Positions 61,873-63,625 of a DNA stretch of 63,694 nt are shown here, piece by piece (the stretch's first letter is position 1; every line of letters starts with the position of its first letter). The stretch lies in the NCBI GenBank assembly GCA_017444065.1, contig JAFSXJ010000102.1, positions 1 to 63,694 of the forward strand, read 5' to 3'. Below the pieces are notes generated by a model. The model was not told where the DNA came from. It saw only the letters and a list, made by a program, of their open reading frames with translations, and did not search any database. The stretch comes from Paludibacteraceae bacterium (GTDB lineage: Bacteria > Bacteroidota > Bacteroidia > Bacteroidales > Paludibacteraceae). Both the position numbers and the translations under genes were made by a program.

Positions 61873-62055
61873 TCAGAGCTTCTTCGATGCGTCGTAGGAC
61901 TCGATAGTCTTGCTCTGGATGATGATGGTCGTATCACCGCGTTTCACGCTGCTACTTGTCGTTGTGATGGATCGCGTCACATTGCAGCCCGTCAGGGCTA
62001 CCAGCCCACCGCAGGCAAGTGCGCCTGCGATGGTGAGAAAGATTATTTTCTTCAT
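61873..62055 (-). CDS. 60-residue lipoprotein
   Basis: A small exported protein, MKKIIFLTIAGALACGGLVA with lipobox LTGC, then a short Thr/Ser-rich mature part (NVTRSITTTSSSVKRGDTTI) ending SYDASKKL. An unusually clear Shine-Dalgarno (GGAGGAACTACC before ATG) decides the start at 62055. It is the last gene of a four-gene set on the minus strand, 15 bases after the preceding gene. No family name known to me; the size and motif suggest a small mobile-element or phage-remnant accessory protein, which is a guess. Confidence 0.7.
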   Translation of the reverse strand: MKKIIFLTIAGALACGGLVALTGCNVTRSITTTSSSVKRGDTTIIIQSKTIESYDASKKL

Positions 62056-62069
62056 GGTAGTTCCTCCGA

Positions 62070-62453
62070 TTAGCCGTTTTGTGCATCGTATTCGTTCGCA
62101 CATAGGTGCCACAGATACTGGTAGAGCGTCTTGTAGCCGGTCTCCTTCTGCGCCTTGAAATTGGCGACATCGGTTGCCACATACGACAGGTTTCTCCTAC
62201 GCTGCTGCACGGCACGACTGATAGCCGCAAATCGGTTACGGAGCAGTTGCTCATCGCTGGTGACCGGCGTGCTTCGTGTCACGGATTTCAGTCCGCGCAG
62301 GAACAGACGGTTGCAATCCTTGCTTGTGGTGGCTGCCGTGCGGTGTGTTGCCAGAAGCATCTGCTCGTCACCTGCGTGCTGCGATTTCTTGTTGATTTTC
62401 GTTAATGCACCGCTCACTGTCGAGATACCCGGTGCCCATGTTACTTTTGCCAT
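62070..62453 (-). CDS. small protein of three-member paralogous set
   Basis: A 127-residue basic protein (MAKVTWAPGISTVSGALTKI...). It has no signal peptide or known domain. A central DEQLLRNRFAAISRAV segment resembles AQVANKARFAKVVAAV of the protein at 62572 and AEQANQERFIEKY of the one at 62979, and the end YQYLWHLCANEYDAQNG resembles the end of the 62572 protein. I infer that the three share an ancestor. Function unknown. Confidence 0.65.
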   Translation of the reverse strand: MAKVTWAPGISTVSGALTKINKKSQHAGDEQMLLATHRTAATTSKDCNRLFLRGLKSVTRSTPVTSDEQLLRNRFAAISRAVQQRRRNLSYVATDVANFKAQKETGYKTLYQYLWHLCANEYDAQNG

Positions 62454-62571: not shown

Positions 62572-62910
62572 TTAATCACCGATTAAGTCACCATTAGCAT
62601 CATAGTTCCCGTTCAGCTTCGCCATAGCATACCCGAACAGCGAACCATACTTGTGCTGCTTCTGGTACTCTGCCTGCAACTGCGCTTTCTCGGTTGCATC
62701 ACTTAGGATAGTCCGCACAGCCGCAACGACCTTTGCGAATCGCGCCTTGTTCGCGACCTGCGCAGCACTGGGTGCTTTGGTGCTCGGGTTACACAACTTG
62801 CCGGTCGTCACCTTTCCGGTCTGCTTGTTCGTGCGGAAGTAAACATCGCTGTGCTCGCACACTTTCTTCTTCATGCTCTCAATCAGAGCCATCGGCTTAA
62901 TCTCTGCCAT
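62572..62910 (-). CDS. small protein of three-member paralogous set
   Basis: A 112-residue protein starting MAEIKPMALIESMKKKVCEH. Segments DVYFRTNKQTGKVTTGKLCN, then AQVANKARFAKVVAAVRTIL and QKQHKYGSLFGYAMAKLNGN, recall a family of small Bacteroidales proteins of unknown role that occur in clusters with a small lipoprotein. It shares its RF-core with both neighbours. Charged and without membrane segments, it could be a nucleic-acid-binding or structural protein; this is not proven. Confidence 0.68.
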   Translation of the reverse strand: MAEIKPMALIESMKKKVCEHSDVYFRTNKQTGKVTTGKLCNPSTKAPSAAQVANKARFAKVVAAVRTILSDATEKAQLQAEYQKQHKYGSLFGYAMAKLNGNYDANGDLIGD

Positions 62911-62978: not shown

Positions 62979-63185
62979 TTATAGCCGTGCATCCGTCGGC
63001 TTTCTTTTTCGGTATTTCTCTATGAACCGCTCTTGATTCGCCTGTTCTGCCTCGGTCTTCACATGCCCTTTTCTGCTCGGGCACCGCTGCACGATCTGTT
63101 TCCCCTTGTACATCCGGAAGTAGTATCCGTCTTTCCGCAACTGTCCTCTCAGCGTCTCTATCGGTATTATCAGTTCTGCTATCAT
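62979..63185 (-). CDS. small protein, first gene after structured leader
   Basis: A 68-residue basic protein, MIAELIIPIETLRGQLRKDG, then YYFRMYKGKQIVQRCP and EQANQERFIEKYRKRKP. A Shine-Dalgarno-like AGAGGAAAC six to eight bases before ATG decides the start at 63185 rather than an in-frame ATG at 63206. YFRMYKGKQIVQRCP parallels YFRTNKQTGKVTTGKLC of the 62572 protein. It follows a leader of about 330 bases that contains the structured repeat units. Confidence 0.68.
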   Translation of the reverse strand: MIAELIIPIETLRGQLRKDGYYFRMYKGKQIVQRCPSRKGHVKTEAEQANQERFIEKYRKRKPTDARL

Positions 63186-63215
63186 ATTGTTTCCTCTCGT
63201 TTGCATTTCTTAATT

Positions 63216-63255
63216 GGGGTCCCCAACAGACGCTAACGTAGTGCACCTGGTGGGG
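63216..63255 (-). repeat. partial third copy of leader hairpin II
   Basis: GGGGTCCCC (63216-63224), with CCCCA (63221-63225) able to pair with TGGGG (63251-63255). It resembles hairpin II of the two full leader units but lacks hairpin I. It ends about 30 bases before the start codon of the first small gene. Confidence 0.55.
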
Positions 63256-63269
63256 AGAGCGGAGACAGC

Positions 63270-63363
63270 GGGGACCCCACAAGTATGCGCTGTGGGGTGC
63301 CAGACAGGGTGCGCCTTTATGCTGTCTGACAGCATCCGATGCGCGCCCCTTGTCGAACGCGAC
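63270..63363 (-). ncRNA. structured leader unit A (candidate RNA motif)
   Basis: Hairpin I: 63319-63325 pairs with 63329-63335 (ATGCTGT/ACAGCAT, 3-base loop), enclosed by GGGTGCGC (63307-63314) against GCGCGCCCC (63341-63349) with a one-base bulge. Hairpin II: CCCCAC (63275-63280) pairs with GTGGGG (63292-63297). The unit ends CTTGTCGAACGCGAC. It is homologous to unit B with changed but still pairing stem bases. Confidence 0.6.
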
Positions 63364-63425
63364 ACGCGACCATCTCGCGACCATCCCGCACGTGCCCGTA
63401 GCGTTCGCGAGCCTTCCGCTTTTTT

Positions 63426-63524
63426 GGGGCCCCACAAGCATCGTGCAGTGGGGTGGCAGCGAAGGCAGGGGTCGCCTTTATGGAGCATGGCTCCATCTGA
63501 TGCGAGCCCCTTGCCGAACGCGAC
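63426..63524 (-). ncRNA. structured leader unit B (candidate RNA motif)
   Basis: Hairpin I: 63480-63486 pairs with 63490-63496 (ATGGAGC/GCTCCAT, 3-base loop), enclosed by GGGGTCGC (63468-63475) against GCGAGCCCC (63502-63510), with the same bulge as unit A. Hairpin II: CCCCAC (63430-63435) with GTGGGG (63448-63453). It begins almost at the predicted transcription start and lies 156 bp from unit A. Confidence 0.6.
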
Positions 63525-63526
63525 GG

Positions 63527-63559
63527 CAAAGATACTATGAAGAACTTGTGCTTTCCAAA
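63527..63559 (-). promoter_or_regulatory. promoter of small-gene operon
   Basis: The minus strand reads TTTG (63559-63556), 21 bases, then TATCTTTG (63534-63527). Transcription should start near 63519, just at the beginning of leader unit B. Confidence 0.7.
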
Positions 63560-63625
63560 TTTTTTTCGCAAAAAAATGCAAAAAAAATTAGCCCCTGCTA
63601 TAGAGGCTAAAATTTTCCCGGATAA

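Follow-up and report, generated by a model that had tools for sequence, protein, structure and literature searches.

The closest described relatives of the DNA considered here are the REP repeats, palindromes which, in the passages of PMC3733652 that deal with them, carry tags at the foot of the hairpin, lie near the 3′ ends of open reading frames, have tips that supply stop codons, and in some cases stand in frame (PMC3733652). The same passages place CGTC repeats without a dedicated transposase in Bacteroidetes, and those of a second source assign TnpA-Y1 subclasses 2.4 and 2.6 to Bacteroidetes and describe 'double foot' and 'atypical' structures (PMC6006769). We suggest, with a probability of roughly 0.85, that a feature near one end of the window (the whole 63,694-nucleotide stretch analysed here) is a pair of neighbouring copies of a palindromic mobile element, dispersed and non-autonomous, of REP/RPE-like kind. 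As a category such a REP-like miniature palindrome is ordinary, and as a family it is apparently new. The openly licensed literature that we searched held no description of this element family, and none of such an element in contact with tRNA ends and promoters in bacteria.

At the right end of the window, on the minus strand, a Bacteroidetes-type promoter is separated from a small gene by two bulged-hairpin units in tandem. In the following list, bit scores refer to the covariance model R1, built from 21 copies, and the remaining element boundaries were read from the letters themselves.

63527–63559, minus strand: promoter of Bacteroidetes type, from the sequence and the own-genome census (distance 3)
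63458–63523, minus strand: copy 1, part I, with left end TCGCGTTCGGCAA, bulged helix, hairpin and right foot (R1 match 63458–63521, 83.6 bits; the TC at 63523–63522 read by eye)
63426–63457, minus strand: copy 1, part II, an optional palindrome CACCCCAC...GTGGGGCCCC
63399–63420, minus strand: possible decayed inverted remnant of the part I feet, AGCGGAAGGC..TCGCGAACGC
63298–63362, minus strand: copy 2, part I (R1 match 63298–63360, 61.2 bits)
63270–63300, minus strand: copy 2, part II
63216–63269, minus strand: copy 2, repeated right foot and part III (CTCTCCCCACC...TTGGGGACCCC), the right end of the element
62979–63185, minus strand: first downstream small open reading frame (start 63185, frame open from 63206), without family match
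62572–62910, minus strand: 112-aa small protein without confident family match

Most of what the earlier note had read from these letters was borne out. The promoter stands where it was placed, its −7 box TATCTTTG ending at 63527 with the left end of the element beginning 3 bases further on, and both homologous units follow it before the first small gene. The arms of hairpin I (ATGGAGC/GCTCCAT against ATGCTGT/ACAGCAT, with 3-base loops), the change of the enclosing helix from TCGC/GCGA to GCGC/GCGC around a one-base bulge, the CCCCAC/GTGGGG of hairpin II in both units, and a third hairpin, at about 63259–63216, are all present. The enclosing helix reaches further out than had been described, GGC/GCC being replaced there by GAC/GTC, a two-sided change, and the spacing of the units needs correction: their left ends, at 63523 and 63362 on the minus strand, are offset by 161 bp, not 156 bp. 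Unit 1 has the layout I-II and unit 2 the layout I-II-III (147 nt). Repeats of TGCCT or TGTCT flank part II in three copies; TGTCT borders it on each side in copy 2 of the window, TGCCT in L002 and L003. The stretch 63186–63527 folds with z = −3.77, none of 100 shuffles being equally stable. Rfam gave no match at the gathering score in the window and none at E ≤ 1 within 63190–63560. The window copies would extend the 5′ leader of the small-gene transcript, and any part they play in regulation would be secondary.

A search of viral contigs with the 112-aa window protein found no relative. Two other small proteins are encoded on the same strand. That at 62070–62453 is a 127-aa protein of MAKV... 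type without confident family match; of its 7 places in the own genome, 3 (C47, C88, C2) lie about 1 kb or less from an element copy, and in G007 a relative adjoins such a copy (L086). That at 61873–62112 is a 79-aa lipoprotein-like protein (GCNVTRSITTTSSS...) with weak family matches only.

The own genome, an assembly of 145 contigs that totals 2.42 Mb and is 80.6% complete, holds 64 copies at E ≤ 1e-3 with R1, far more than chance would give, a 65th following at E = 0.49; BLAST with the window leader retrieved 38 matches at E ≤ 1. In part I, a palindrome of 64 nt with a bulge, the feet (TCGCGTTCGGCAA ... TGCCTCCGCTCTCC) are conserved, and the stems vary and covary; its order is TCGCGTTCGGCA-A-stem-bulge-stem-internal loop-hairpin, returning to TGCCTCCGCTCTCC. 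Part III forms another palindrome, with the terminus GGGGACCCC, and part II is an optional extra one, CACCCCAC...GTGGGGACCCC; in L010 a piece like it occupies the hairpin I loop, and in L006, L008 and L013 one follows part I. The whole element measures about 100–150 bp. For the flanks we analysed 163 of 165 copies found by regular expression, leaving out those without 150 nt upstream and 300 nt downstream; at least three that resemble chance matches (L087 near 631, L139 and L169), and L058, which is counted twice, were all kept, and sister species may share an orthologous site in this set, which makes the 64-copy census of the own genome the cleaner one. A right end is recognisable in 135 of the 163, the distance from left to right end having a median of 103 nt and a 10–90% range of 98–117 (copies with part II may be cut short here), and 108 of these 135 right ends fold below all 20 of their own shuffles. 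On the left-flank side a T is conserved in 124 of 154 copies and a C in 148 of 154, beyond which no further sequence motif and no fixed target tetranucleotide are visible. In G007, three copies with an identical part I occupy different sites. The left flank GAAGATGGTCCCGTGATGCTC, seen at L010 (copy at 1513–1574), L183 and L241, is shared with changes by several species; in L010 it is matched past the right end by an imperfect inverted copy, and the whole looks like a palindrome which the element has split.

At E ≤ 1e-3, R1 matched 28 of 61 genomes, the own included; all 28 fall among the 37 of the own genus, with no match in the 24 genomes of other families, and within the genus the copy number goes from 64 down to 0. 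An order-wide search at E ≤ 1e-6 matched 2 of 295 genomes (183 genera), both of the own genus, and gave no match in two other genera of the own family; it scored few candidates per genome (17 of the 64 own copies), at which depth low-copy genomes could be missed. The pattern of the two feet occurs in at least 114 stretches of the genome collection (100 of these 114 loci entered one locus set, 60 loci another); among the 80 stretches listed, the titles name Paludibacteraceae or Bacteroidales, plus one Prevotellaceae and one Bacteroidia, and many records come from ruminant or gut samples. No viral contig carried the exact foot pattern and blastn with the window leader found no match in phages and plasmids, on which grounds a phage or plasmid origin was rejected. 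The earlier note had proposed a covariance-model search in which many hits upstream of similar small genes would support a structured RNA; the copies stand beside tRNAs, after stop codons and promoters, and inside genes.

Among 39 copies tested, in-frame copies were found in L007, within a transporter gene read as RND-type; in L016, within a 667-aa frame without Pfam match; and twice in L039, within a kinase with APH and RapZ C-terminal domains and within the neighbouring nucleotidyl transferase. Further open frames were flagged, for example in L041, L052, L053 and L013. The insert in the L039 kinase (net about 99 nt) is missing in all 11 relatives compared, in which the flanking aligned pieces lie 0–15 nt apart, against 34–40 codons in the own genome. 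In G001 and G007, the nearest two of these relatives, where the junction was read, about 10 nt of the site are different and no target-site duplication was seen. The L016 copy stands in a linker from which the element is absent in the 14 relatives read; the linker itself varies among them, and the absence is less clean than at the kinase site. A 15th relative, G013, yielded no alignment, and five further genomes with a match lie outside this comparison. From such presence and absence between species we infer that the element is mobile. Of the options listed in the earlier note, a mobile element or recombination site is the one that holds.

The stems covary strongly. In alignments fitted to the R1 model, which lean towards its structure, 93.5% of cells are paired among 71 distinct rows, with two-sided changes in 20 of 22 pairs (270 cells), and 94.0% among the 102 distinct rows of a second set, with two-sided changes in 16 of 22 pairs (360 cells). 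None of 500 shuffles reached the paired fraction, the two-sided counts or the covariation score in either set; the value for further pair types was reached by 5 of 500 in the 71-row set and by 473 of 500 in the 102-row set. Sliding the stem partners abolished the covariation signal, and a MAFFT alignment of 21 copies gave the same result, with two-sided changes in 19 of 23 pairs (62 cells). A stem under selection as RNA is expected to pass through G-U pairs and to keep them. In 164 distinct copies, counted on model-fitted alignments, we found 3055 Watson-Crick pairs, 24 G-T, 56 A-C and 155 other mismatches, as against 388 Watson-Crick, 29 G-T, 1 A-C and 2 others in the acceptor stems of 60 tRNAs from the same loci (stems with fewer than 5 Watson-Crick pairs omitted). 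On the transcribed strand the element stems thus lack the G-U tolerance expected of a structured RNA. That A-C outnumbers G-T in them (p = 0.0005) is a mild effect beside the tRNA ratio and may reflect tolerance in RNA of the antisense strand or an effect of alignment. Because the stems covary almost wholly by Watson-Crick changes, and G-T is rare compared with tRNA, the data point to pairing preserved at the level of DNA, not RNA. The earlier conclusion of selection on RNA structure accordingly stands in one half, in that pairing is kept through the stem changes, and is not supported in the other, in that G-U is avoided. A DNA enzyme would recognise the element as a single-stranded or cruciform hairpin, which would keep the pairing as DNA; correction of quasi-palindromes at replication is an alternative cause. 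Covarying stems are easily read as RNA, a trap that this element illustrates, and counting G-T against A-C with a tRNA control is a simple test that separates covariation at the two levels.

The left end of the element lies at tRNA and tmRNA ends, −7 boxes and stop codons far above chance. In the own genome, 27 of 64 left ends touch such an edge where 0.96 would be expected, the contact windows having been set after the data were seen and the random positions drawn from 58 loci around copies. Twelve are in contact with the end of a tRNA or tmRNA (−2 to 6 nt; 11 tRNA 5′ ends and one tmRNA 3′ end), six, including unit 1 of the window, begin exactly 3 nt after a −7 box, and nine touch a stop codon (−2 to 2 nt); by the same rules 37 copies are without edge contact. 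Within the 163-copy set, 32 left ends stand at a distance of −1 to 4 from the end of a tRNA or tmRNA (intervening bases plus one), 24 at 5′ ends and 8 at 3′ ends of 12 gene types, with a further 5′ case at 7, whereas on the other side, measured from the end of part I and not from the right end, the nearest tRNA is at least 55 nt away. A −7 box TANNTTTG ends no more than 10 nt from the left end in 19 of 163 copies, in 13 of them at exactly 3 nt; the same is true of 0.7% of random positions and of none of the 135 right ends. Stop codons of open reading frames of at least 80 aa lie within 5 nt of 13 of 163 left ends, 0 of 135 right ends and 1.0% of random positions. Contact with start codons, seen for 5 of the 163 left ends, 7 of the 135 right ends and 2.4% of random positions, was not significant, and we do not claim it. 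Two neighbouring sequences may be mentioned here: the left end in L226 abuts what we take to resemble a parS site, and that in L009 (G000:C11:48259) abuts the sequence GGGTGGGATACGGACATATAAAAGG, which may be another stable RNA gene.

Two readings of this contact are live: insertion may be targeted, or the flank may have been eroded to the edge. It is tempting, if speculative, to see in the first a new class of miniature single-strand-DNA element that is guided, when it inserts, to the edges of functional units and so spreads with little harm; we regard this as a tentative proposal, with the odds somewhat against it. Guided insertion would put the left end at a tRNA 5′ or 3′ end, at the transcription start 3 bases past a −7 box, or at a stop codon, and the guide would be something common to such edges rather than a target sequence. 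A measurable preference for functional edges makes it testable how miniature palindromes reach harmless sites, and the genus offers up to dozens of copies per genome together with many sister species.

The other live reading, that insertion was random and untargeted and neutral DNA at the left end was then eroded from one side as far as a functional edge, is likewise possible but doubtful. It would account for contact with edges that differ in kind (promoter, tRNA, stop codon) and are alike to selection, and for the loss of the left-terminal TC at several stop codons; it sits less easily with the sharpness of the promoter contact at 3 nt and with right ends that make no contact with promoters or stops. 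Nor does it fit well the tRNA-Glu genes, where the leader kept beside the element looks about as long as many element-free leaders. Here the element stands in the leaders of L012, L335, L336 and L341 (that of L342 looks decayed), and the distance from promoter to element approximates the length of many whole leaders in element-free genes (L326–L333, L337, L338, L340 and L343–L345, which cover a wide range of lengths), a comparison made by eye on diverged sequence which mildly favours insertion at the edge without loss. Upstream of tRNA-Glu in L334 and L339 stand other hairpins, with left end CCGACGA and ending right at the tRNA 5′ end, which may be a second, related family. That the element has been domesticated for RNA processing or insulation, marking transcript edges and retained for that function, is improbable. 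The edge contact in 27 of 64 copies would suit such a role, and GC-rich palindromes beside tRNA genes in fungal mitochondria provide an analogue, but genomes of the genus hold anything from 64 copies to none, copies lie inside genes, and the element stands in one orientation upstream of tRNAs and in the other after promoters.

Explanations that invoke RNA fare worse. According to one, the copies are a reverse-transcribed small RNA family in which those abutting a promoter are source genes, the left end therefore being an RNA 5′ end, and the others are cDNA insertions at RNA ends. Six own-genome copies do start exactly 3 nt past a −7 box, left ends do contact both 5′ and 3′ ends of tRNAs, and genomes matching RVT_1 are somewhat richer in copies (8 vs 29 genomes, p = 0.10). 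Yet the stems lack RNA-type G-U pairs, and although RVT_1 (PF00078) matched 10 of 41 genomes, among them G012 with its 11 copies, seven of the eight genomes with at least 10 copies have no match (G000, G001, G007, G009, G014, G034 and G035, four of them at least 95% complete). A reverse transcriptase is thus disfavoured as mobiliser, and we consider this explanation very improbable. Least probable of all is the structured cis-regulatory leader RNA or attenuator of small genes that the earlier note had put forward. The leader position is real, the window copies folding strongly just downstream of a promoter and 19 of the 163 copies lying within 10 nt after a −7 box, but copies are dispersed, lie beside tRNAs and stop codons and inside genes, avoid G-U in their stems relative to tRNA and find no match in Rfam, and as a general explanation for 64 copies a structured regulatory RNA already fails. 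An integron attC site, considered for the bulges, was dropped after comparison by eye with attC boxes.

If the dispersed element is mobile, as we prefer, the enzyme that recognises it may be a HUH (Y1/RAYT-like) nuclease acting in trans, a candidate to which we give somewhat less than an even chance. At E ≤ 0.001, Y1_Tnp (PF01797) found no match in the own genome; it matched 16 of 41 genomes. With a 386-aa RAYT-like protein of G003 as query, 29 of 41 genomes gave one or more hits; in the own genome there were three, at C61, at C108 and, as a fragment, at C67. Both long own proteins have DHFH (HuH) and YVQDNP (Y) motifs, that of C61 scoring 20.4 bits against Y1_Tnp, under the cut-off of 23, and the proteins of two relatives match NCBIfam REP_Tyr_transpos, under its cut-off. 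The RAYT-like proteins of the genus join a Y1 HUH N-terminal part to a long C-terminal part without Pfam match, and many genomes of the genus have several paralogues. Among 45 RAYT loci, some of them overlapping, which as a rule reach about 1 to 1.5 kb beyond the gene, 4 contain any element copy, one each, and at none is the gene flanked by the element on both sides; as no locus is so flanked, RAYT was rejected as a cognate transposase recognised by flanking. Flanking the RAYT-like gene of L134 (G000:C108) are two near-identical sequences of about 70 bp that resemble the end of a gene, stop codon included. G012, 92% complete, has 11 copies and no RAYT match, G024 has RAYT matches at 8 places and no copies, and RAYT is common in some copy-free genomes. 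Presence of RAYT is weakly associated with copy number (26 vs 11 genomes, p = 0.01), with a rank correlation of 0.31 (p = 0.06); both tests ignore relatedness and completeness, and use R1 counts that favour genomes whose copies resemble those of the own genome.

Among known systems, likeness extends, by description, to mitochondrial GC clusters, double-hairpin elements and Neurospora PstI palindromes, which are dispersed GC-rich hairpins, some of them flanking tRNA genes; these are organellar, and we claim no membership among them. With the PATEs, non-autonomous elements of IS200/IS605 type, the present element shares a subterminal hairpin near each end, which would suit single-strand processing by an HUH enzyme, but no element was seen that joins these ends to a transposase gene, and the left flanks show no visible fixed target tetranucleotide. 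MITEs differ in that the element lacks terminal inverted repeats, its ends being TCGCG... and ...GGGGACCCC; at the one junction read no target-site duplication was seen, and TGCCT or TGTCT repeats border part II in three copies. BrickBuilt, a MITE of Porphyromonas gingivalis, is likewise a small non-coding repeat family in Bacteroidales, but is described, in the passages on it, as strictly intergenic (PMC10969869). The Rickettsia palindromic elements (RPE) are closer: the passages on them give about 150 bp and in-frame insertion into unrelated genes (PMC10969869), and here too an in-frame insertion is missing from orthologues, in one L039 copy and less cleanly in L016. RPE belong to another phylum, and the likeness is one of description, not sequence; contact with tRNA ends and promoters is not among the RPE features in those passages (PMC10969869).

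The nearest comparison is with the REP, REPIN and BIME repeats and their RAYT proteins. Instead of a 20–40 bp palindrome tagged GTAG/CGTC, the element has a left end TCGCGTTCGG, a right end GGGGACCCC and a part I of 64 nt, and the cognate RAYT gene flanked by repeats that marks the GTAG type was not found. G-T pairs are rare in its stems, whereas the passages on GTAG repeats report frequent GT pairing (PMC3733652). Like REPs as those passages describe them, it is intergenic, sometimes in frame within genes, and often near the 3′ ends of open reading frames (PMC3733652). It shares with these systems the presence of RAYT-like proteins in the genus and, above all, the many short, dispersed palindromic copies with compensatory, pairing-preserving stem variants, and is set apart from them by its length of about 100–150 bp, its two palindromes, its bulges, and a left end that lies also at tRNA ends and promoters.
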